Assembly (NCBI GenBank): GCA_937896565.1
Contig: CALBOV010000244.1
Location: 1 to 36,380 of the forward strand
Length of the DNA: 36,380 bases
Direction: 5' to 3'
DNA from: an uncultured Salinisphaerales bacterium
Lineage (GTDB): Bacteria > Pseudomonadota > Gammaproteobacteria > Nevskiales > OUC007
Below the pieces are notes generated by a model that worked only from the letters and a program-made list of their open reading frames with translations, was not told the origin of the DNA and ran no database searches. The position numbers and the translations under genes were made by a program. This document shows, in pieces, positions 15,161 to 33,083 of the stretch (within the stretch, counting starts at the first letter, position 1; each line of letters begins with the position of its first letter).

Positions 15161-16477
15161 ATGATCAGACCATTGCCCCACCGCGCCGGTGGATCGGCCC
15201 CCATGCGGCTTTCAAGACGCGACTTCCTGCGTCACAGCCTGGCCACGTCCGGCCTGGCCGTGACTGGCCCACTGCTGTGGAGCTGCAGCGGGGGAGGTGG
15301 TTCGGGGCCGGGCGGCACGGTGCTGGCGCCTTCCCTGACCAAGCTCGGAGCGCTGGGCGAACCGGATGCCAACGGCGTGCGATTGCCCGACGGGTTCTCC
15401 GCACGAATCATTGCCGAGGCCGGCTTCCCGGTGGTCGGCGACCTGCTGGACCCGATTCTGGGCCCGCTGCTGGGATACAACTGGCACACGTTTCCGGACG
15501 GAGGTGCGACCTTTCCCGCCGCCGACGGTGGCTGGGTTTACGTATCGAATTCGGAGTCGGTGCCCGGGGGTGTCGGCGCGCTGCGTTTCGATGCCGATGG
15601 CAATGTCGTCGATGCCTACCAGATCCTCGCCGGCACGATCATCAACTGCGCCGGCGGTCCGACTCCCTGGGGCACCTGGCTGTCCTGCGAGGAAATTCCG
15701 ACCGGTCGCGTGCACGAGTGCGATCCGTTTGGCGGGGTTCTCGATGCCCGCGCCCGTCCGGCGCTCGGCATCTTTGATCACGAGGCGGTCGCGGTCGATC
15801 CGCTGCGCCGTCAGCTGTTCCTGACCGAGGATTCGGGCGACGCCACGTTCTACCGCTTCGTGCCCAGCGAATCCGACTGGCCCGCGGCTGCCGAACGGCC
15901 CGCCCTGGAAGACGGCGTGCTCCAGGTGATGGTGGTCCCTGGTGTCGCCGATTCGCGCGATATCCCGTTCGACGCCGACCCGGTGGCGGTGCAGTGGGTC
16001 GATGCGCTCGCGCCCGACCGGCCGCAGGCCTCCAACCGCCATCCGGAGGCGACCGTGTTCGCCGGTGCCGAAGGCATCTGGTACATCGACGATATCGTCT
16101 ACTTCACCTGCAAGTCCGGCAATCGGGTGTGGGCGTATCACTGCGTGAACCAGACCCTGGAGCCGATTTACGACGACGACGCCTACGGCGGGGACGACGC
16201 GCCGCTGCGCGGTGTCGACAACTGCGTGGTGTTCGGTCCTTCGCGGGACCTGATCGTCGCGGAGGACGGCGGCGACATGCGGATCAGCGCGATCGGCTTG
16301 GACGGGTCCGTCGTGCCGATTATGCAGATCGTGGGTCAGGACGACTCGGAGATCACCGGTCCCGCGTTCAGTCCCGACGGATCGCGCCTGTACTTCAGTT
16401 CGCAGCGCGGCGGCCGTTTCTCCGGCGGCATCACCTACGAGGTGACCGGGCCGTTCGGCGAGGTGCGCCAGGGCTGA
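15161..16477 (+). CDS. PhoX-like DUF839 exported protein
   Basis: A secreted beta-propeller protein of the PhoX/DUF839 family (alkaline phosphatase PhoX superfamily), 438 residues. The N-terminus carries a Tat signal with the twin arginines in LSRRDFLRHS (about 18-26), a hydrophobic stretch and a possible lipobox LLWSC (Cys42), then a glycine-rich linker. Family motifs are VYVSNSESVPGGVGALRFD, the hallmark CAGGPTPWGTWLSCEE, FDHEAVAVDP and LTEDSGDATFYRFVP. The product is shorter than canonical PhoX phosphatases, so phosphatase activity is uncertain; calcium/iron binding is likely for the fold. AGGAG lies 7 nt before the ATG at 15161; an internal ATG at 15203 would keep the Tat signal. It converges on the TonB-receptor gene. 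Confidence 0.88.
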   Translation: MIRPLPHRAGGSAPMRLSRRDFLRHSLATSGLAVTGPLLWSCSGGGGSGPGGTVLAPSLTKLGALGEPDANGVRLPDGFSARIIAEAGFPVVGDLLDPILGPLLGYNWHTFPDGGATFPAADGGWVYVSNSESVPGGVGALRFDADGNVVDAYQILAGTIINCAGGPTPWGTWLSCEEIPTGRVHECDPFGGVLDARARPALGIFDHEAVAVDPLRRQLFLTEDSGDATFYRFVPSESDWPAAAERPALEDGVLQVMVVPGVADSRDIPFDADPVAVQWVDALAPDRPQASNRHPEATVFAGAEGIWYIDDIVYFTCKSGNRVWAYHCVNQTLEPIYDDDAYGGDDAPLRGVDNCVVFGPSRDLIVAEDGGDMRISAIGLDGSVVPIMQIVGQDDSEITGPAFSPDGSRLYFSSQRGGRFSGGITYEVTGPFGEVRQG

Positions 16478-16522: not shown

Positions 16523-18970
16523 TCAGAACTGCAGGTTCAGCGCCGCGAACAACTGTCGACCGCTGGCCAGCTGTGACTGGTAGGTGCCGGGGAAGAATGG
16601 GGTGTCGGTGACCTGGTTGAGCACACGCTCGTCGGTCAGGTTGGTGCCGCCCAGCGTGATCGACCAGCGTTCACTCTGCGAACCCAGCGTGATGCGGGCG
16701 GCGTACTTGGTGTAGGCCGGCACGTAGGTGTTCGGGTCCAGATCCGAATCGACGAACTGGTCGCCCTGGTAAAGCACGTCCACGGCGCTGATCAGCACCA
16801 TCGAACCCAGCGGAAAGGTCAGCGTCGGCGTCAGTGTTGCCGTGGCGCGCGGGGCGAAGGCGATGCGCTGGTCGCTGAGATCCTGCTCGGCGTCGATGCC
16901 TTGCTGGATGGGTGCCGGCGCGTCGCGGTAGTCCTTGTAGCGGGCGTCCAGCCAGCCGAAGGAGCCCATCAACTCCAGCGGGGCCCAGGGGGTCAGCCAC
17001 AGGAAATCGGCTTCCACGCCCCGTGAGTAGGCGCTGGCCGCGTTGCTGACATCGAAGAACGTGCCGTTGAAGGCCAGCACCTGCAGGTTGTCGAACTGGG
17101 TGTGATAAAGCGTCAGGTTGGCCTGCAGCGTGCGGTTGAAGAACCGACCCTTGATGCCGGCCTCGACCGTCTGGGTTTCCTCGGCCTCGTACTCCAGGTC
17201 ATCGCCGGTGTAGGACAGCGAGTTGAAACCGCCGCTCTTGAAGCCTTTCGCCCAGGATGCGTAGTAGTTGACGTCGTGGTCGCTGAAGTACTGCAGGACG
17301 AGTTTCGGCGACACGTCGGATTCCTCCCGGCGCAGGTTGTCGCGGTCGTAGTCGTTCGCGCCCAGCAGCAACCCCATCACGCAGGGGATCACGGACAGCG
17401 CGGTTCGTTCGCAGAACGCCGTGCCCGCCGAATCGACGCGTTTTTCCTCACGGTTGTAGCGGATGCCGGGAGTGATCGCCCAGCGTTCGGTGAGATACCA
17501 GGTCATCTGGCCGAACAGCGCCGCCGAGCTGATGTCCTGCGTGTAGTCGAACTGGTAGAAGTCGTTCTGCAGCAGCGGGACCAGCGCGGGCCCCAGGCCG
17601 CGGAGCAGGGTCAGCGGGCTGCTGGCGCCACCGTTTCCGGTGATCAGCTGGAATGCGTCGTCGGTGAACACGTAGGAGCTGAGGTCCTCGCCGGCGAGGA
17701 TCCGCGCCAGCAGGGTGTAGCTGGAATCGAACCAGAACGCACCGGCGACGAACTCGACGCCCGTTCCCCAGCCGAACGGTGCGGGGCCGGCACCGTCAAA
17801 ACGGAACTCTGCGGAGAGCTGGTCGTGATCCTCGTGGTTGTCCAGCCGGCCGATGTTCGCCGGTGAGATGTCCAGCTCATTGAGCTGGTCGATGTAGAAC
17901 CGCGAGCCACCGAGCACCAGCACGCTGTTGAGATCGTCGAGCGCGCCGACCGGCCCGTGCGCCCACTCGGTCTTCCAGCCGATGGTGCGTGAACCCTTCT
18001 CGATCCAGCCCGGTGTTTCGGCGGAGTTGATGAAGTTCTTCGGGTCGTCCTCGATGTCCGGATCGAAGTCTTCGAGATAGGTCCGTGTGTCCTCGTCCAG
18101 GTTGAACAGCTGGAACGGCCAGAACGCGGCTTCGGTATCCGAGATGACGGCGGTGATTTCGCTGTCGATGTCGTAGGTCGGCAGCACGCGGAACTTCAGC
18201 CGGGCGGCCTGCTGTTCCAGGTGCTCCTCGTCGCGTTGCAGGAGCTGGTTGTACAGCTCGCCGTCCTGCGCGCGGTCGAGCACCGCGAGGCGTCCGCCCA
18301 CCCATTCGTTGAACATCCCGCCGACACCCGCCTCGACGCGGTGTTCGCCGTGCTCGCCGTAGAACACGCGGCCGTCGACGCCGGCACCGGAGACCGGACC
18401 CTTGGTGATGACGTTGAACACGCCGGCCACGGTGTTCTTGCCGAACAGCGTGCCCTGCGGGCCGCGAAGCACCTCGACGCTGTCCACATCGAACATGGCC
18501 TCGGTGAAATAGCCCGGGCGGCCGAAGTAGATCTCGTCCTGCACGAAGCCGACCGAACTCTCGAAACTGGGGTTGAACGCGTTCGTGCCGAAACCGCGGA
18601 TGAACACCTGCGGCGAGCCGAGGTCGTCGGCATCGACGCGCACGTTCGGCACGTAAAGCGAGACGTCGGCGAGATCGGCCGAGCCGCTGGCCTGGATGAA
18701 TCCGCCGTCGATGGCGGTGACCGAGACCGGCACTTCCTGAAGGGTCTGCTCGGTTTTCTGAGCGGTGACCACCATTTCCTCGAGCTGACGCGGTGGCTCA
18801 TCGGCACTGCGTTGCTCGGGGCTGTCGATTGGCTGTACCGGAATCAGGTCGAGTTCCGTCTCGATCGATTCGGGTTCGGAGGGGCGCTCCTGATCGGCGG
18901 TCTGAGCACCGGCGGCGGTACTGAAGACGAGTGCCAGAACCGCCACTCCACGGGTCGAAAAGTGCTTCAT
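16523..18970 (-). CDS. TonB-dependent outer membrane receptor
   Basis: An outer-membrane 22-strand receptor driven by TonB, 815 residues. Residues 1-22 are a Sec signal (cleavage near AAGAQ). An acidic spacer (about 25-60) leads to a TonB-box-like EEMVVTA (64-70). The plug domain (about 75-190) contains VPVSVTAIDG, FIRGFGTN and the highly typical VEVLRGPQGTLFGKNTVAG. The barrel ends LFAALNLQF, with the terminal Phe required for BAM assembly. The plug resembles the FecA/FyuA-like receptors abundant in Xanthomonadales and sphingomonads, whose substrates include siderophores, vitamins and glycans; the substrate here cannot be read. The ATG at 18970 has GGGAG upstream and a normal signal peptide. 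No TonB, ExbB or sigma/anti-sigma gene adjoins it. Confidence 0.95.
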   Translation of the reverse strand: MKHFSTRGVAVLALVFSTAAGAQTADQERPSEPESIETELDLIPVQPIDSPEQRSADEPPRQLEEMVVTAQKTEQTLQEVPVSVTAIDGGFIQASGSADLADVSLYVPNVRVDADDLGSPQVFIRGFGTNAFNPSFESSVGFVQDEIYFGRPGYFTEAMFDVDSVEVLRGPQGTLFGKNTVAGVFNVITKGPVSGAGVDGRVFYGEHGEHRVEAGVGGMFNEWVGGRLAVLDRAQDGELYNQLLQRDEEHLEQQAARLKFRVLPTYDIDSEITAVISDTEAAFWPFQLFNLDEDTRTYLEDFDPDIEDDPKNFINSAETPGWIEKGSRTIGWKTEWAHGPVGALDDLNSVLVLGGSRFYIDQLNELDISPANIGRLDNHEDHDQLSAEFRFDGAGPAPFGWGTGVEFVAGAFWFDSSYTLLARILAGEDLSSYVFTDDAFQLITGNGGASSPLTLLRGLGPALVPLLQNDFYQFDYTQDISSAALFGQMTWYLTERWAITPGIRYNREEKRVDSAGTAFCERTALSVIPCVMGLLLGANDYDRDNLRREESDVSPKLVLQYFSDHDVNYYASWAKGFKSGGFNSLSYTGDDLEYEAEETQTVEAGIKGRFFNRTLQANLTLYHTQFDNLQVLAFNGTFFDVSNAASAYSRGVEADFLWLTPWAPLELMGSFGWLDARYKDYRDAPAPIQQGIDAEQDLSDQRIAFAPRATATLTPTLTFPLGSMVLISAVDVLYQGDQFVDSDLDPNTYVPAYTKYAARITLGSQSERWSITLGGTNLTDERVLNQVTDTPFFPGTYQSQLASGRQLFAALNLQF

Positions 18971-19204
18971 GCACACTCCCAGAGATGTCGTGAGTTGGAT
19001 CGGTCCGAGGTTCTGATGCCGCGGTGGTCGATGGCTGCTGCAGTGCCTCCGCCCCTTGGCACCATAGTCCACGCGCGGTCGGTGGATAGTCGTAAATTGA
19101 CCCTACTCGCGTGTCACATTCGGTCACGTCGTGTTCTGCTGGCATGATTACGGCGTACTGCGGGCACCGTTACTCAATTCACGACGCGCAAGGGAAGGTT
19201 GATC

Positions 19205-19570
19205 TTGAACCGCTTGTTTTTGCTGGGTGTTTTGGCCCTCGTGCTCACCGCCTGCGGGCAGGGTGGCTCCGAGCCGGGGATTTCCATCGCCAAGGCCTTG
19301 TCGCTGGCACCGGAGGATCCGGCGCTGGCCGATCAATACCGGTCCAGCTGCCGGGCGTGCCACGCGGCGAGCAACTCGGGGGCGCCGATGACGGGCAGCC
19401 TGGCGGCGTGGAAGCCGCGTCTGGACAAGGGCCTGGACGTGCTGGTGGAACACACCATCACCGGTTTCAAGGGCATGCCGCCGATGGGCCTTTGTTCCGA
19501 CTGCTCCGAGTCCGAACTGCGGGCGCTGATCGAGTTCATGGCCACTCCACCACAGGAGGATGGAGCGTGA
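19205..19570 (+). CDS. Cytochrome c5-like lipoprotein
   Basis: A small periplasmic monohaem electron carrier anchored as a lipoprotein, about 121 residues. The signal is NRLFLLGVLALVLTAC with the lipobox LTAC. The haem site is CRACH (about 49-53) and the distal Met lies in KGMPPMG. The extra CSDC pair after it is the disulfide typical of cytochrome c5, and the ending SESELRALIEFM is the usual C-terminal helix. GGGAAGG sits 6 nt before the TTG at 19205, so this start is preferred over the TTG at 19199. The stop overlaps the GTG of the next gene (GTGA). In context it is the likely electron acceptor of the downstream oxidase. Confidence 0.9.
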   Translation: MNRLFLLGVLALVLTACGQGGSEPGISIAKALSLAPEDPALADQYRSSCRACHAASNSGAPMTGSLAAWKPRLDKGLDVLVEHTITGFKGMPPMGLCSDCSESELRALIEFMATPPQEDGA

Positions 19571-20973
19571 AAAGGCGTGACTTTCTCGTCGGCGGCGCGG
19601 CGGTTGCCGTAACGCCGCTGGCCGGCTGCGATGACTATGGCGCCGCCAACATGCCGCAGCCGCCGGCTCCCAGGACCGGGCCGGATGGCGAGCGTCTGCT
19701 TCCTTGGCAGAACTGGTCCGGTTACCAGTCCAGTCTGCCGAGCCAGCGTGTCGCGCCCGAAACGGAAACCGCGCTGGCCGAACTGCTGACGTCGACGCAG
19801 GGCACCGTGCGACCGGTGGGTTCCGGGCATTCGTTCACGCCGCTGGTGCCCACGGACGACACCATCGTCTCGTTGCGCCATTTCAGCGGGCTGATCGAAT
19901 CCGACGACCAGGCGATGACGGCCGTGGTCGGGGCCGGAACCAAGCTGGGCCGCCTCGGCGAGCCCTTGCACGAGGCCGGGCAGGCGCTGATCAACATGCC
20001 GGACATCGACGCCCAGACCCTTGCCGGGTCGATGGCCACGGCCACGCATGGCACCGGCGCCGGGCTTGGCGCGTTGCACACCGCGGCGACCGCGCTGCGG
20101 CTGGTCACCCCCACCGGCGAGATCATCGATTGCTCCGCCGAGCAGAATCCGGACGTCTTTCAGGCGGCGCAGGTCTCGCTGGGGTCCCTGGGCGTTCTGA
20201 CCCGGGTCACGTTGCAGAACGTGCCCACGGTGCGCATGAAGCGCCGGGTCTGGGTCGAGGATTTCGCCTCGCTGGTCGACCGCTTCGACACGCTGGCCGC
20301 CGAGCACCACAGCTTCGAGATGTATTGCGTGCCGCATGGCGATTACGGGATTGCCATCACCATCGATCCGACCGATGAACCGGTCCAGCCGCGTGGTCCG
20401 GAGCAGGACAACGACGCGGTCATGGATCTGAAAAAGCTGCGGGACCTGCTGTCCTGGTTCCCGTCGGCGCGGCGCTGGCTGCTGAACATGGCCATGCAGG
20501 ACTACCAGCCCGAGGAAGCGGTGGATGTCTGGTATCGCATCTTTCCGTCCAGCCGCGCCGTGCGCTTCAACGAGATGGAGTACCACCTGCCGCGCGAGGC
20601 CTTGCTGCCGACCGTCATGGAGGTGCGCAAGACACTGGAGCGCAAGCATCCCGGCGTCTTCTTCCCGATGGAAATCCGGGTGGTCAAGGGCGACGATGCC
20701 TGGCTGAGCCCGTTCCAGGGTCACGCGACCTCCGGGTCGATAGCGGTGCATCGCTATTACGAGGAGGATCCGCTGCCGCTGTTTCGTGACGTGGAGCCGA
20801 TCTACCAGCCGCTGGGCGGTCGTCCGCACTGGGGCAAGATGCACACGCTGGGGCCGGAGACGCTGGCCGAGCGGTATCCGCGCTTCAACGACTTTGTCGC
20901 AATGCAGGCGAAACTGGATCCGCAGGGCCGCATGCTCAACGGATATTTGAGGGAGTTGTTTGGTCGTGGCTGA
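19567..20973 (+). CDS. FAD-binding oxidoreductase, D-arabinono-1,4-lactone oxidase type, Tat-like signal
   Basis: A vanillyl-alcohol-oxidase-superfamily flavoenzyme of 468 residues. The N-terminus KRRDFLVGGAAVAVTPLAGC combines a Tat-like twin arginine with a lipobox-like LAGC, so export as a folded holoenzyme is inferred. The FAD domain (about 45-240) has VRPVGSGHSFTPLVPTDD, where the His at about 88 is the usual covalent FAD site of ALO/GULO enzymes, and GSMATATHGTG. The C-terminal ALO domain ends in the typical PHWGKMHTL and DPQGRMLNGYLRELF. The family oxidises aldonolactones, alditols or similar polyols. Using cytochrome c rather than oxygen as acceptor is suggested only by the neighbour. 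It starts at a GTG after GGAGGATGGAGC and overlaps both flanking genes. Confidence 0.92.
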   Translation: MKRRDFLVGGAAVAVTPLAGCDDYGAANMPQPPAPRTGPDGERLLPWQNWSGYQSSLPSQRVAPETETALAELLTSTQGTVRPVGSGHSFTPLVPTDDTIVSLRHFSGLIESDDQAMTAVVGAGTKLGRLGEPLHEAGQALINMPDIDAQTLAGSMATATHGTGAGLGALHTAATALRLVTPTGEIIDCSAEQNPDVFQAAQVSLGSLGVLTRVTLQNVPTVRMKRRVWVEDFASLVDRFDTLAAEHHSFEMYCVPHGDYGIAITIDPTDEPVQPRGPEQDNDAVMDLKKLRDLLSWFPSARRWLLNMAMQDYQPEEAVDVWYRIFPSSRAVRFNEMEYHLPREALLPTVMEVRKTLERKHPGVFFPMEIRVVKGDDAWLSPFQGHATSGSIAVHRYYEEDPLPLFRDVEPIYQPLGGRPHWGKMHTLGPETLAERYPRFNDFVAMQAKLDPQGRMLNGYLRELFGRG

Positions 20974-22288
20974 TCGGGAGGTCAACTGGAAACGCCGCGC
21001 CTTGCTCGCCGGCTGTGTCGTGGCGCCGATTGCCATCGGTGCGGCGAAGAAACCGCGTGATCATGGCCGGGGCGGGCATGACGACTACTTCGGCGGCATC
21101 CAGCAGGCTCTGCGCGAAGCCGGCCTGATGCAGCCGACCCTGGTGATCGACCGCGCCAGGCTGGACGCCAACATCGAACGGCTGAAGTCCCACCTGCCGT
21201 CGTCCATGGCCTACCGCATCGTCGCCAAGTCGCTGCCCAGCGTCGAGCTGATCAGGCGTATCCGCGAGGCGACCGGCACCGACCGCCTGATGGTGTTCCA
21301 CCAGCCGCATCTGGACATCCTGTCCGCGGCGATGCCGGATTCGCGTCTGCTGCTTGGCAAGCCGATGCCGGTGGGGGCGGTGGACCGCTTCTTCACCGGG
21401 CATCAGCCCGGTGCGTTCGATGTGTCAGCCCAGATCGAATGGCTGGTGGACACGCCGCAGCGTGTGCGGGACTACCGCGAGATCGCGGCGGCGCGGGCCG
21501 CGCAGGGCGCGGGTCCGATGCAGTTGAACATCGAGCTGGATGTGGGGCTGCACCGCGGTGGCTTCACGTCGACACGGGACGTGGCCGAGGCCATTCAGGC
21601 CATGCATTCGGATCCGGCCGTCCGGTTTTCGGGCTTCATGGGTTACGAGGCGCACGCGTCGAAGATGCCGGAGCTGATGGGCGGGCCCGAAGCCGCGCTC
21701 GCCGATGCGATGGCCTTTTATTCGGATTGCGTGTCCACCGCCCGCGAGGTGCTGGGTTCCGCGTTCGACGAAGATGTCCTGACGCTCAACATGGGCGGCA
21801 GCAGCACCTACGAGCTGTACGACGACTCCGCGCCCTGCAACGAGCTGGCGATGGGGTCGGGGCTGGTCAAGCCCACCGATTTCGACACCAGCACCCTGGC
21901 GGATCATCAGCCGGCGTCATTCATCGCCACGCCCGTGCTCAAGCAACTCGATGGCGTACGCCTGCCCGGTCTGGAAGGGCTGTCCGGCCTGTTCCAGGCC
22001 TGGGATCCGAATCAGCAGCAGACATTCTTCATCTACGGCGGTTATTGGCATGCGGACACGGTGTCGCCGCCCGGCCTGCAACGCAACGCGATCTGGGGCC
22101 ACTCGACCAATCAGGAAATGGTCAACGGCTCGGATGCGGTGAAGCTCGCGGTGGGTGATCACATCTTCCTGCGCCCACACCAGAGCGAGTTCGTGTTCCT
22201 GCAGTTCGGCGACATCGCCGTCCATGAGGGCGGACGGATCGTCGACACCTGGCCGGTGTTCCAGCAGGGTTCGACCGGCTCAGCCTGA
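20960..22288 (+). CDS. PLP-dependent alanine-racemase/D-threonine-aldolase fold protein, probably exported
   Basis: A fold-type III PLP enzyme of 442 residues. Residues 11-30 (KRRALLAGCVVAPIAIGAAK) form a twin-arginine-like signal or membrane anchor. The TIM-barrel domain (about 58-320) has TLVIDRARLDANI and the PLP lysine in YRIVAKSLPSVELI (Lys90). Repeated glycines in FSGFMGYEAH and LNMGGSSTYELY help hold the phosphate. The C-terminal beta domain resembles the D-serine dehydratase/D-threonine aldolase metal domain, with PHQSEFVFLQFGDIAVHEGG. D-amino-acid aldolase, dehydratase or racemase activity is possible; the substrate is unknown. The TTG at 20960 or the GTG at 20966 may be the start; GGGAG at 20951 serves either. 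It overlaps the oxidase gene by 14 bp. Confidence 0.85.
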   Translation: MVVADREVNWKRRALLAGCVVAPIAIGAAKKPRDHGRGGHDDYFGGIQQALREAGLMQPTLVIDRARLDANIERLKSHLPSSMAYRIVAKSLPSVELIRRIREATGTDRLMVFHQPHLDILSAAMPDSRLLLGKPMPVGAVDRFFTGHQPGAFDVSAQIEWLVDTPQRVRDYREIAAARAAQGAGPMQLNIELDVGLHRGGFTSTRDVAEAIQAMHSDPAVRFSGFMGYEAHASKMPELMGGPEAALADAMAFYSDCVSTAREVLGSAFDEDVLTLNMGGSSTYELYDDSAPCNELAMGSGLVKPTDFDTSTLADHQPASFIATPVLKQLDGVRLPGLEGLSGLFQAWDPNQQQTFFIYGGYWHADTVSPPGLQRNAIWGHSTNQEMVNGSDAVKLAVGDHIFLRPHQSEFVFLQFGDIAVHEGGRIVDTWPVFQQGSTGSA

Positions 22289-22687
22289 TACGGTCGCGAG
22301 CGCACGGTCCTCGGGTTCGACGGTTTCGGTGCCGAACCCGGTGACGTGCAAACCGCCGAACTGGCGCAGAAAGGCGTCCACGATCAGCCGCGGGACGGGC
22401 TGTCCGTCGAACATGGGCGTCAGGGCACGAGCCTGATCCACGCGCTCGAATGCGTGGGGTGTGCGTTCCACAACCACGACCCGATTGTCACGGTCCCTGT
22501 ACATGAAGGCGTGCTGCATATCCATTGCTCCGGTGGCGAGTTCCATACAGAACGGCTTCCGGAGCCGAATCCGGACATCGGCCGGGATTGTGGCCGTGCC
22601 CGGGGACTGGAACATCCCCCCGAATGGGTCGTACAGCGTTCGGCAGGCGCGGGTCGGACGCTTAGTCTTCCCTGATTCCGGTGTCAT
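22280..22687 (-). CDS. Hypothetical protein, 135 aa
   Basis: Not recognised. The predicted 135-residue protein has no signal peptide or membrane segment. It mixes basic, aromatic and hydrophobic residues in a way typical of a folded cytoplasmic domain (for example MELATGAMDMQHAFMYRDRD, VVVVERTPHAFERVDQAR and VPRLIVDAFLRQFGGLHV). Its codons favour G or C in third positions like real genes here, and the opposite-strand frame is less protein-like. The ATG at 22687 gives the full length but lacks a good ribosome site; an internal ATG at about residue 25 is an alternative. Its 3' end overlaps the PLP gene by 9 bp on the opposite strand. Confidence 0.6.
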   Translation of the reverse strand: MTPESGKTKRPTRACRTLYDPFGGMFQSPGTATIPADVRIRLRKPFCMELATGAMDMQHAFMYRDRDNRVVVVERTPHAFERVDQARALTPMFDGQPVPRLIVDAFLRQFGGLHVTGFGTETVEPEDRALATVSG

Positions 22688-28306: not shown

Positions 28307-28878
28307 GCACCGACGAGGCCGACTGCCTGCGCAGAATCGCATCCGGCGGTGCGCCCCGGCGTCAGGGCATCGCTGACCTTTACGCGCTTTACGCCGTGCG
28401 TTTTCGTGGTTACTTCCGCCGTCGCGGGGCTTCACCGGCCGACGCCGACGAGCTTTGCCAGGACAGCTTCGTCCGTCTGGTCCGCGCCCTGGATCGGGGC
28501 GCTCGGGTCGAGCAACCCCGAGCCTGGATCTGGTCGGTGGCGCAGTCCCAGTGGCTGGACTGGCGTCGGAAGACCACTCCGGCAGCCGTGGCCGTGGCCG
28601 CGGGTGACTGGGACGGGACCGAGCCCGGCGAGGATCCGACCGCTCGGGGCGTGCATCTCGACGACTGCGTACGCCGGCAGTTCGCCGCCTATTCGGCCAC
28701 GGACCCGGCCGGCGCGCAGGCCTTGCTGTGGGCCAGCGTCGAGCAGTTCACGGCACCGGAGATCGGTGAACTGCTGGGCCGTTCCCCGGGCGCGACCCGC
28801 CAGTTTCTCAGCGAGGCTCGCAAGCGCGTTCGCGACTACCTGTCGGTTTGCAGGGAGTGGCTGGATGCCTCGAGCTGA
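28303..28878 (+). CDS. ECF-type RNA polymerase sigma factor
   Basis: A small sigma-70 family protein of 191 residues with regions 2 and 4 only. Region 2 covers about 25-90, with DADELCQDSFVRLVRAL as the core-binding helix and PRAWIWSVAQSQWLDWRRK as the -10-recognition part. A variable linker follows. Region 4 (about 125-180) has PEIGELLGRSPGATRQFLSE, the helix-turn-helix for the -35 element. The GTG at 28303 overlaps the upstream gene. It probably reads envelope stress through the neighbouring anti-sigma factor and drives the vWA operon. Its last 43 bp overlap the 3' end of the convergent signalling gene. Confidence 0.88.
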   Translation: MSTDEADCLRRIASGGAPRRQGIADLYALYAVRFRGYFRRRGASPADADELCQDSFVRLVRALDRGARVEQPRAWIWSVAQSQWLDWRRKTTPAAVAVAAGDWDGTEPGEDPTARGVHLDDCVRRQFAAYSATDPAGAQALLWASVEQFTAPEIGELLGRSPGATRQFLSEARKRVRDYLSVCREWLDASS

Positions 28879-31800
28879 TCCAGCGCCGAGGAGAGATCGG
28901 TCGCGGCGGGAAACAGCAACCCCTGCCGATAGTCCACGCCGATGCGCTGCACTTCCTGATCGATGGCTTGCGTCTCGACGTATTCGGCCACCGTGCGCAC
29001 ACCCAGCAACTTGGCGATGCCGTCGATCGCCGCCACCAGGTCCCGGCTGGCCTGGTCCATCAACATGTCGCGGACGAAGCTGCCGTCGATCTTGACCAGG
29101 TCGCAGGGCAGCGACTTCAGGTAGTGGAACGACGCCAGGCCGCTACCGAAATCGTCGATCGCCACGCGGCAGCCGTGGCTGCGCAATTGCCGCACGAACT
29201 GGCTGGCCCGTTCCAGGTTGGAGATGGTCGCCGTCTCGGTGATCTCGAAGCAGAGCTTGTTGGCTGGTACGCGGCTCTGGCCGATCATTTCCAGCACCTT
29301 GTCGGCGAAGTCGCTGCGTCCCAGTGTCTGCCCGGACAGGTTGATGGACACGAACTCCAGGTCGGCAATGCGGCTGAGATTGGTTTCGAGCTGCGCCAGC
29401 GCGGTGCGCGTGACGTGGACATCGACATCGGGCGCCAGGCCATAGAGTTCGGCGGCGGCGATCAGTGCGCCGGTGTCGACGGGCGGTTCCCCTTTCGGGG
29501 TATCGACACGCAGCAGCATTTCCAGGCCGACGACCCGATTCTCGGCTGAGGCGACAATGGGCTGGCAGGCAAGGCGAATGGCATTGTTGCTGATGGCGTC
29601 CCGGATCAGCTTCGCCCAGTGCATTTCGGTTCGCCGACGGGCATCGCTGGTGTCGGCTTCGTCGAAGACCCGCGCCGAGCCCGGGCCTTCGCTACGTGCG
29701 ACATAGCTGGCGACGTCCGCGCGGCGGAGTACCTCCTCGGCCTCCACGTCATGGTCGTCGATGCCGACGATGCCGATGTAGCACTCCAGCGTGAAACTGT
29801 GTTCGTCGACCTCGATGGGCTGGTCCTTCAGCGTGCGCAGGATGCCGTCGGTGACCCGCCTGGCCTCGTCCACCGGGCAATATTCCATCAGGATGCCGAA
29901 CTCGTCACCGCCCAGCCGTGCGACGACATCGCGGCCACGAGTGTGCTGGCGCAGCAGCGTTCCGAACTGTCGCAGCACCGCGTCCCCGACATCGTGTCCG
30001 GCGGAGTCGTTGATCAGCTTGAAATTGGACAAATCCACCTGCGCCAGCACGTGCGCGGCGGTTCCGGGCCGATGATTCCGCAGAATACGCCGCAGCACCG
30101 CCTCGAACTCGCGACGGTTGAGCAGGCCGGTGAGCGCATCGTGGGTGGCGTGGAACTCCAGCTGGTCGGACAGATGCTTTTCCGAGGTCAGGTCCTGGCA
30201 CAGCACGTACAGCGTGGGTTCGTCGTCGACCGTGACGGCGCGGGCGATGCTGCGTACCCACAGTATCTTGCCGTTGCGACCGGACAGGCGCGCATCCCAG
30301 CGTTCGATGCCGTCACCGGAATCGAGAACGCTTAGCAGCAGGCTGCGCGTGCGTGCGGGGCTCCCGCTCAGCGCGGCGAAATCAGCGCCCTGCAGTTCAT
30401 CGGCCGTGGTGCCGAGTTGCTCTGCGCCATAGGCGTTGACCGACTCGATCTCCAGTTTGGCGTTGAGCGTGAAGAACATCGTCGGGTTGTCGTCGTATAG
30501 CGCGCGATAACGGGCCTCGCTGCGCCGAAGACCGGCCTCCGCATTCTTCAGCGCGGTAACCTCCGAGTAGGTGACGACTACGCCGGTGACGCGGTTGACG
30601 GCGGTGCGATAAGGCATCACCCGGCGGATATACCAGGCGCCGTCGATGTCCTGAACCTCGTCCTCGATCGGCTGCTCGTCGCGGGCGACGGTTTCGATGT
30701 CCGGAAGCAGCGGCGCGGCAACCCGCAGTCGGTTGGCGATGTCGTCGATCGGGCGGCCGACATCGGTCTGGATCAGATTGAACAGTCGCGTGGCGGACGG
30801 CGTGAACCGTCTGATCCGGCCCACCGGGTCCAGGAACAGCGTGGCGAAATCGGTGCTGGCCAGCAGGTTGCCCAGGTCGTTGTTGGTCTTCTCCAGTTCG
30901 TCGAGCTTGTCCTGCAACTCGCTGTTGACCGTGGACAGCTCTTCGTTGAGCGATTGCAGTTCTTCCTTGGAGGTTTCCAGTGCCTCGTTCGAGGACTGCA
31001 ACTCCTCGTTCATGCTCATCGCCTCTTCATTCGAGGTCTTGAGCTCCTCGTTCGCGGTTTCCAGCTCCTCGATCGTGCCCTGCAAGTCTTCGCGCGTGGA
31101 CTTCAGCTCGTTTTCCAGCTGGGCGATGGCGCTGTCATCCTCCAGGTTCAGTCCGGTGGCGGCGTCGTCGCTCGTGTCGAGGCTGTCTTCCGGGGAGAAG
31201 CTGATCAGGCACAGCCGCTCCTCGATCCGAGGGTGCTCCAGCGGACTGGCGGTGATTCGCGTGCGCTTGACCGGCCCGTCCTGGATACGGCCGCTAACGG
31301 TGATCGGCTGTCGCTCGGACAGCGCCTGCCGGACGATTTGTCGCAGCTTCACGCGCAGGCCTCGGCGGGCCAGCGTCAGCAGGTCATTGCTTGGCGGCCC
31401 GTTCGGCAGTTGTAGGTAGTCTCCCGTGGCGCCGAAGATCTGGACCACCTCGAAGTGCTCCGTGACCACGACCGAGGCCGGGACGTAGCGCTCCAGCAGC
31501 AGGCCCTGGACATAGGGCGCCAGCATGTCGGTTCCCAACGGGGATTCGGCGGGCTGGAGCTCCGGGTCCGCAGGCTCCTGCGGCACCTGGTGTCGCATGG
31601 TCTGAAAGCTGGAGCGTTCGAACAGCGTGGCACCCTGCACGCGCTGGAAAATCCGCGCCCGCTTGTCCACGGCGCGGAACAGCTTCTCCGCCCTGCCGAT
31701 GGTTTCCGAACCGCCGAGAAAGAGAAAACCTTCGTCGTTCAGCGCGAAGCTGAACAGCGACAGCACCCGTTGTTGCAGGTCGGTGTCGAGATAAATCAGC

Positions 31801-33083
31801 AGATTTCGGCAGGAGATCAGGTCCAGGCGTGAAAACGGTGGGTCGTTGATCAGGTCCTGCCGGGCGAAGACGACGGTTTCGCGCACGTGCTTGCTGACGC
31901 GATAGCTGTGATCCTCGCCGGTGAAGTAGCGTCGAAGCCGTCCCTCGGACACGTCGCCGGCGATACTTTCCGGATAAACCGCGGTGCGTCCGGTCGCCAG
32001 CGCGCGCTCGTCGATGTCCGTGGCGAAGATCTGTAGGTTCAGCGGTCGACCCACCTTCGACGCGCCATCGGTGATCGCGATGGCGATGCTGTAGGCCTCC
32101 TCGCCCGTGGAGCAGCCGGGGACCCAGACGCGAATCGGCTGGTCGTCCGGCTTGGCGAGCAGACGTTCGATCACCTCCTTTTCCAGTGCCTCGAAGTACT
32201 CGGGCTCGCGGAAGAACTGGGTCACGCCGATCAGCAGATCGTCGAACAGCTGCGTGACCTCGTTCGGATCACGTTTGAGCAGCGTGATGTAGTCGCTTAT
32301 CCGGTGCAGCTGCCGCAGTCCCATGCGCCGCTGGATTCGGCGGGCGACCGTGCCGCGCTTGTACTTGCGGAAGTCGTGCTTGGTGCGTGCCCGGACCACT
32401 GATAGCACGGCTTCGATCTGGTCATCCGGCGACTGTGCGGACGATTCCGTGTCCGCCGCGCGAATGTACTGATGCTGGATGTACTGGCGCAGCACCTCCG
32501 GCATCGCGGCCGGCGGCAACACGAAATCGACAACGCCCGTGCGGATCGCGGAGACCAGCATGCCGTCGTGCTGGGCACTCTTGGGTTCCTGCACCATGGC
32601 CATGCCGCCATTGCCCTTGATTGCCTTCAGCCCCTGTGTGCCATCGGTTCCGGTACCGGAGAACAGCACGCAGATCGCGCGTTCGCGCTCGCTTTCCGCC
32701 AGCGACCGGAACGAGAAATCGATGGCCATGCGCGCGCCGCGCTGTTCCTGCGGCTGGTGCAGGTGCAGGACACCGTCGGAGATGGACAGATACCGGTTCG
32801 GCGGGATCACATAGACATGATCGGGGGCAACCGTCATGCCGTCCGTGGCCTGGGTGACCGGCATCGCCGTGTACTTGCCCACCAGCTCGACCATCAGGCT
32901 GTGACGATGCGGGTCCAGATGCGGGATCAGCACGAAAGCCATGCCCATCCGGCTCGGTGCGGTCTTGAAGAACTCTTCGTAGGCGCTCAGTCCGCCCGCG
33001 GACGCTCCAATCGCGACAATGGGAGGCGATGAGGTCCCCTTGTTCCCCGGCTTGGGTCCCTTTGCCATGTGCTTCCCCGACAT
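28836..33083 (-). CDS. CheB-CheR-coiled coil-PAS-PAS-GGDEF-EAL signalling protein
   Basis: A 1415-residue soluble multidomain signalling protein. Numbering is from the ATG at 33083; the ATG at 33068, preceded by GGGGAAG, may be the true start. Domains in order: CheB methylesterase (about 20-205), with the catalytic Ser in GASAGG, His in PHLDPHRH and Asp in GTGTDGT; CheR methyltransferase (about 220-485), with VPGCSTGEEAYSIA and NDPPFSRLDLISCRNLLIY; a ligand-like domain (about 530-635); a coiled coil (about 655-738) of repeated NEEL/SNEE units; PAS (about 740-845) and PAS (about 855-970); GGDEF (about 980-1145), with GGDEF at 1058-1062 and an RxxD inhibitory site at 1049-1052; and EAL (about 1155-1400), with DDFGSG, KIDGSFV and AEYVET. 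The EAL signature itself reads EML (1188-1190). It probably links receptor methylation or demethylation to c-di-GMP turnover. Confidence 0.93.
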   Translation of the reverse strand: MSGKHMAKGPKPGNKGTSSPPIVAIGASAGGLSAYEEFFKTAPSRMGMAFVLIPHLDPHRHSLMVELVGKYTAMPVTQATDGMTVAPDHVYVIPPNRYLSISDGVLHLHQPQEQRGARMAIDFSFRSLAESERERAICVLFSGTGTDGTQGLKAIKGNGGMAMVQEPKSAQHDGMLVSAIRTGVVDFVLPPAAMPEVLRQYIQHQYIRAADTESSAQSPDDQIEAVLSVVRARTKHDFRKYKRGTVARRIQRRMGLRQLHRISDYITLLKRDPNEVTQLFDDLLIGVTQFFREPEYFEALEKEVIERLLAKPDDQPIRVWVPGCSTGEEAYSIAIAITDGASKVGRPLNLQIFATDIDERALATGRTAVYPESIAGDVSEGRLRRYFTGEDHSYRVSKHVRETVVFARQDLINDPPFSRLDLISCRNLLIYLDTDLQQRVLSLFSFALNDEGFLFLGGSETIGRAEKLFRAVDKRARIFQRVQGATLFERSSFQTMRHQVPQEPADPELQPAESPLGTDMLAPYVQGLLLERYVPASVVVTEHFEVVQIFGATGDYLQLPNGPPSNDLLTLARRGLRVKLRQIVRQALSERQPITVSGRIQDGPVKRTRITASPLEHPRIEERLCLISFSPEDSLDTSDDAATGLNLEDDSAIAQLENELKSTREDLQGTIEELETANEELKTSNEEAMSMNEELQSSNEALETSKEELQSLNEELSTVNSELQDKLDELEKTNNDLGNLLASTDFATLFLDPVGRIRRFTPSATRLFNLIQTDVGRPIDDIANRLRVAAPLLPDIETVARDEQPIEDEVQDIDGAWYIRRVMPYRTAVNRVTGVVVTYSEVTALKNAEAGLRRSEARYRALYDDNPTMFFTLNAKLEIESVNAYGAEQLGTTADELQGADFAALSGSPARTRSLLLSVLDSGDGIERWDARLSGRNGKILWVRSIARAVTVDDEPTLYVLCQDLTSEKHLSDQLEFHATHDALTGLLNRREFEAVLRRILRNHRPGTAAHVLAQVDLSNFKLINDSAGHDVGDAVLRQFGTLLRQHTRGRDVVARLGGDEFGILMEYCPVDEARRVTDGILRTLKDQPIEVDEHSFTLECYIGIVGIDDHDVEAEEVLRRADVASYVARSEGPGSARVFDEADTSDARRRTEMHWAKLIRDAISNNAIRLACQPIVASAENRVVGLEMLLRVDTPKGEPPVDTGALIAAAELYGLAPDVDVHVTRTALAQLETNLSRIADLEFVSINLSGQTLGRSDFADKVLEMIGQSRVPANKLCFEITETATISNLERASQFVRQLRSHGCRVAIDDFGSGLASFHYLKSLPCDLVKIDGSFVRDMLMDQASRDLVAAIDGIAKLLGVRTVAEYVETQAIDQEVQRIGVDYRQGLLFPAATDLSSALDQLEASSHSLQTDR

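Follow-up and report, generated by a model that had tools for sequence, protein, structure and literature searches.

The sphBCD operon of Pseudomonas aeruginosa is induced by sphingosine and is needed for sphingosine removal (PMC3900636, PMC11893366). Within this operon sphB and sphC are important in sphingosine metabolism, growth with sphingosine does not require sphD under the conditions used, and orthology beyond Pseudomonas was considered hard to judge (DiGianivittorio et al., 2025, PMC11893366); the same paper cites SphC as Tat-secreted. We analyzed a stretch of 36,380 nucleotides (the window), which is contig 244 of a 4.07 Mb assembly (414 contigs, 88.5% complete), and found at 19205-22288 three overlapping ORFs on the same strand, for a lipoprotein cytochrome of the c5 type, a flavoenzyme of the ALO family and a PLP protein of fold type III (Table 1). 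A tblastn search against plasmid records led to a P. aeruginosa record with the order cytochrome c5, D-arabinono-lactone oxidase and DSD1-family PLP enzyme, an arrangement that corresponds to PA5328-PA5326 (sphBCD) beside a transporter gene (sphA) and sphR. Over nearly their full length, the three proteins of the window share 54, 44 and 46% identity with PA5328, PA5327 and PA5326, respectively (copies in NZ_CP070468). The trio is a member of this already known operon type, and the statement of the first-pass annotation that no described pathway joins the three genes was therefore wrong, since sphBCD of the SphR/sphingosine regulon is known from P. aeruginosa (PMC3900636, PMC11893366). The matched record, NZ_CP070468.1, is labeled as a plasmid and carries spoT, gmk, pyrE, argB and coaBC; as these genes are typically chromosomal, it seems to hold a chromosomal segment.

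Gene families, gene order and types of export are alike in the window and in P. aeruginosa (LaBauve and Wargo, 2014; DiGianivittorio et al., 2025), and both genomes encode a ceramidase. The order c5-type cytochrome, ALO oxidoreductase and fold-type III PLP enzyme was found on one strand, and the combination of a Sec lipoprotein signal in SphB with a Tat signal in SphC was found at the level of motifs. In contrast to P. aeruginosa, the sphBCD genes of the window overlap, the trio adjoins a divergent TonB-dependent receptor rather than the SphA porin, no SphR is adjacent, and the ceramidase has a lipoprotein-like N terminus and is encoded on another contig, near a phosphoesterase. The overlaps amount to 4 bp between sphB and sphC (19567-19570) and 14 bp between sphC and sphD, or 8 bp with the GTG start of sphD that relatives match better, which upholds the earlier description of one operon with three overlapping genes. 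The best AraC-type match to SphR in the same genome is 33% identical and unlinked to the trio, and a search of this genome for an SphA homologue was empty, which proves little. An Abyssibacter MAG was the closest named relative found, with 76% identity in SphD.

Table 1. Positions of the sph trio, its divergent neighbor and the cytosolic cassettes
Feature	Position	Strand	Start and stop	Description
TonB-dependent receptor	16523..18988	-		Divergent from trio; probable outer-membrane entry
Divergent intergenic region	18989..19204	.		Presumed promoters; short blocks GTCGTAAA, CTGGCATGATTACGG
sphB	19205..19570	+	TTG 19205 or 19199; stop 19570	c5-type monohaem cytochrome, predicted lipoprotein
sphC	19567..20973	+	GTG 19567; stop 20973	ALO/alditol-oxidase-like covalent FAD enzyme, Tat-type N terminus
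sphD	20960..22288	+	TTG 20960 or GTG 20966; stop 22288	Fold-type III PLP protein, Tat-type N terminus
Cytosolic PLP-ALO cassettes	L147:8435-13996, L148:2316-8082, L149:3-6084, L151, L152, L153, L181:7079-13405			PLP enzyme paired with ALO enzyme

The export signals of the trio were called by motif and hydropathy, and at this level the proposed export of all three proteins holds. SphB has the lipobox LTAC and the haem motif CRACH, is assigned to Cytochrome_CBB3 in Pfam (8e-14) and matches ScyA and cytochrome c5 in the PDB. Among 64 SphB homologues the lipobox cysteine is kept in 61 and CxxCH in all. Like the soluble cytochrome c5 and ScyA, SphB is a CxxCH monohaem protein of the c5 type by sequence, but it is a predicted lipoprotein and is encoded together with one flavoenzyme. 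SphC, the only ALO protein of its genome, begins with the twin-arginine type motif KRRDFLVGG and scores 500 bits against TIGR01679 (cut-off 292) and 1e-52 against ALO, with FAD_binding_4 also assigned. Its covalent-FAD motif reads GSGHSF, and His88 (covalent FAD), Glu369, Arg371, His421 and Lys424 are invariant in all 97 SphC sequences and align with conserved residues of 2vfr. These are the active-site residues of this xylitol (alditol) oxidase. SphC thus keeps the covalent-FAD His, Glu-x-Arg and His-x-x-Lys of the alditol oxidase/ALO enzymes (xylitol oxidase 2vfr, 8ot8; TIGR01679), and differs from them in being exported and paired with a cytochrome. The earlier view of an ALO-type oxidoreductase able to pass electrons to a c5-type cytochrome was in our judgment right.

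We then considered the oxygen-gate position, which aligns with Ala113 of galactonolactone dehydrogenase (PMC11099136) and is mostly Pro, Ala or Ser in SphC, as against Gly in the majority of the other ALO proteins sampled. Loci with Gly lack sphB in 6/7 cases and those with Ala, Ser or Leu have it in 11/11; Pro loci are mixed (49 with sphB, 22 without and 3 at contig ends). As the window SphC has Pro145, the gate residue decides nothing for it, and we rejected it as a predictor of cytochrome use here; this SphC may use O2 rather than SphB. Asp146, which lies beside the flavin, is present in 97/97 SphC sequences and had looked like a possible binder of the substrate amine, was likewise rejected as a marker, since most ALO proteins without a nearby PLP partner carry it too.

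SphD starts with WKRRALLAG followed by a hydrophobic stretch and matches Ala_racemase_N in Pfam (4e-15), and its Schiff-base lysine, Lys90, is kept in 102/102 sequences. The AlphaFold model (pLDDT 88) has beta-hydroxyaspartate aldolase (BhcC) and D-threonine aldolase as its closest folds, followed by same-fold racemases (alanine racemases, BsrV) and dehydratases. D-threonine aldolase and BhcC (4v15, 6qkb) are thus the nearest in fold and distant relatives in sequence with a common Schiff-base lysine, and the assignment of the PLP enzyme to a class acting on D-amino acids proved sound. In D-threonine aldolase, Mn is coordinated by His347 and Asp349 (PMC4401734); in contrast, SphD has RPxQSE at the metal ligands, with Gln408 and Glu410 at these two positions in at least 101 of 102 sequences, as placed by gapless comparison of the C-terminal GD... 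motif with the D-serine-deaminase-like protein (SHPC) of a relative. None of 16 SphD members matches PF14031, the domain with the His and Asp/Cys metal ligands, and SphD differs from the aldolases also in being exported. Aldolase activity of SphD is therefore not assured, as both PF14031 and the His/Asp ligands are absent. However, a metal-free aldolase is plausible because one mutation makes alanine racemase an aldolase, a result cited in PMC4401734. A SphD family without the metal ligands of D-threonine aldolase is new here.

Conservation of the gene order, which the first-pass annotation had put forward as a check, is widespread. We compiled 104 loci with similarity to SphD as the sole criterion. 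They comprise 80 named genome contigs, 4 plasmid records and 20 regions taken from the window's relatives, and a few of them repeat the same genome. Directly upstream of sphD on the same strand lies sphC in 94 loci, and sphB precedes sphC in 58. As these loci were chosen by the PLP gene alone, such an arrangement is not due to chance. The twin-arginine N terminus of SphD is recognizable in 93-97 of 101 scorable cases. With start codons inferred, SphD has no clear signal in Ruegeria and Yoonia, where a DUF819 membrane protein is encoded nearby, and neither SphC nor SphD has one in G003 and Halovibrio. In these last two no SphB was recognized by similarity, and an upstream ORF in G003 has a CxxCH motif.

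The genome of the window encodes a neutral ceramidase (416 bits, both Pfam domains, lipoprotein-like N terminus), a family present in 0/14 control genomes, and its only match to PF04185 (PlcH-type phosphoesterase) lies about 9 kb away on the ceramidase contig. Elsewhere the ceramidase gene is beside the trio in Solimonas fluminis, in a second genome of the same order (G052) and, three genes away, in a Salinisphaerales MAG, and it is within 10 kb of the trio in Pseudomonas sp. F(2018) and a Hellea MAG. These 5 cases compare with about 0.8 expected if a genome holds 1.5 ceramidases in 3.9 Mb. The order sphBCD, ceramidase, GDSL lipase, SDR and PF04185 phosphoesterase is found in S. fluminis and the second same-order genome. 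Co-occurrence of ceramidase and sphD among 61 genomes was significant overall (p = 3e-5) and not within one family (p = 0.14); as it mostly follows family membership, we set it aside as evidence and relied on physical linkage.

The best match to the TonB receptor of the window is the sph-linked one in 7 other genomes, each with up to 44 matches, and a TonB receptor also adjoins the trio in Hydrocarboniphaga, Sinimarinibacterium, Litorivivens and a Spongiibacteraceae MAG, one of these four loci being from the same genome as one of the 7. The receptor may thus stand in for the SphA porin; a TonB receptor adjoining a sph operon is new here. A paralogue in the genome of the window (G000:C214:9999-13543) is 50% identical and adjoins a DUF819 membrane-protein gene; in Ruegeria a DUF819 gene is next to sphBCD, and in Yoonia one is found close to it. 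In the intergenic region GTCGTAAA and CTGGCATGATTACGG are mostly conserved in two genomes of the same genus, and a promoter scan of 18989-19204 found no sigma-70 consensus. Several other genes of the window were recorded. A short PhoX-like protein with a PD40 repeat (15320-16477, plus strand), convergent with the receptor gene, occurs also in G002 and near the trio in L038. A small protein without a Pfam match (22280-22687, minus strand) is convergent with sphD and overlaps its end, with a similar ORF near the trio in both same-genus genomes. Finally, 28836-33083 (minus strand) encodes one 1,415-residue protein with CheB, CheR, PAS, GGDEF and EAL domains, adjoined by a second GGDEF-EAL protein.

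In six genomes of the same order without a close sphD, we found a PLP enzyme with about 24% identity to SphD together with an ALO enzyme that lacks a signal sequence, is 38-40% identical to SphC and has Gly at the gate. This cassette usually follows a TetR gene, includes an MFS transporter gene in the three examined (L147, L149, L151) and is adjacent to a ceramidase gene in 3/6 genomes (L147-L149). Mycobacterium riyadhense, Arthrobacter and Burkholderia arboris carry similar pairs, and that of B. arboris (L181) is accompanied by an AraC regulator sharing 39% identity with SphR. The row in M. riyadhense (L168:4333-8094), with consecutive genes for an amino-acid deaminase/aldolase, an M28 peptidase and a D-arabinono-lactone oxidase, is an actinobacterial version of the pairing. 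The same chemistry seems to have been assembled anew from another PLP subfamily, and a joint oxidation-plus-PLP step is therefore favored over an incidental SphD. A cytosolic oxidase-plus-PLP cassette beside a ceramidase or an SphR-like regulator is new here; we met no description of it in a literature survey of more general scope than the cassette.

We consider it probable, at roughly 70%, that the trio is a sphBCD operon for the extracytoplasmic degradation of sphingoid bases, with C1 oxidation by SphC, SphB as electron acceptor and a subsequent SphD step. Beyond what we observed, namely an operon with export motifs and catalytic residues, its similarity to and synteny with that of Pseudomonas and the linkage to sphingolipid genes, we infer the oxidation site of SphC, its product, the reaction of SphD and the cargo of the TonB receptor as follows. 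The lipid or its precursors would enter through the receptor, and sphingosine would be provided by the ceramidase, which is encoded on another contig. SphC would oxidize the primary alcohol at C1 of sphingosine or sphinganine, probably as far as the carboxylate by two 2-electron steps, and SphB would pass the electrons to the respiratory chain. By our derivation, oxidation of C1 to COOH swaps the CIP priorities at C2, so that (2S,3R)-sphingosine would give a (2R,3R)-2-amino-3-hydroxy acid. Such a D-amino acid with a beta-hydroxyl group belongs to the substrate class of D-threonine aldolases, and the oxidized sphingosine could then be cut into glycine and a fatty aldehyde. It is tempting to speculate, although we hold this only tentatively, that there is a kinase-free cleavage of sphingosine, with C1 oxidation by an ALO enzyme and a split by a PLP enzyme free of the metal site, and that it evolved in at least two forms: an exported, cytochrome-coupled sphBCD and a cytosolic one with a different PLP subfamily, the Gly gate and an MFS transporter. 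A literature search for other bacterial sphingosine-aldolase routes found none.

An alternative is that detoxification of sphingoid bases needs SphB and SphC only, through a single oxidation to the aldehyde or the 3-keto form, and that SphD has another or an accessory role, for instance in aldehyde handling or as a racemase. This agrees with the dispensability of sphD in P. aeruginosa, with sphBC lacking sphD in P. fluorescens WCS365 and Caulobacter, with the absent aldolase metal ligands and with the racemases among the matches of the SphD model. However, those two organisms showed little or no phenotype, aldolases rank first among the fold neighbors of SphD, SphC and SphD are neighbors in most loci, and a different PLP subfamily is paired with an ALO enzyme beside a ceramidase, so that we regard sphBC acting alone as rather unlikely. 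We find it unlikely, too, that the trio is a general module for 2-amino-1,3-diols that in this marine genus acts mainly on a long-chain amino alcohol other than sphingosine, such as a sphingoid base of bacteria or algae or a lipid resembling capnine. The neutral ceramidase of the same genome points instead to ceramide-type precursors, although P. aeruginosa sphBC matters for phytosphingosine and sphinganine too and related ALO-PLP pairs are found in Mycobacterium, Arthrobacter and Burkholderia.

The substrate favored by the first-pass annotation, an amino-sugar- or peptidoglycan-derived compound, would make the PLP enzyme a counterpart of the D-glucosaminate deaminase OngC, a fold-type III PLP enzyme whose substrate is an oxidized amino sugar and whose pathway is supplied through TonB receptors, and ALO enzymes do accept polyols and lactones. 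Yet OngC is predicted to be cytoplasmic, the orthologues in Pseudomonas respond to sphingosine and remove it, and the loci showed no conserved sugar genes, whereas ceramidase, PlcH-family phosphoesterase and SphR-type regulators recur there; we therefore found no support for such a substrate and judge it very improbable.

Altogether, the synteny of the trio, its linkage to ceramidase, the stereochemical fit and the second cassette allow a specific claim about an extracytoplasmic sphBCD pathway, one whose product can be measured, and the question of what SphC and SphD produce is sharpened here rather than solved. Sphingosine is an antimicrobial defense lipid of skin and airway, and marine algae and bacteria also contain sphingolipids. 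Many environmental hosts carry sph genes, among them Abyssibacter, Solimonas, Alcanivorax and Hyphomonas, and the removal of sphingosine matters both in skin and airway defense and in marine settings.
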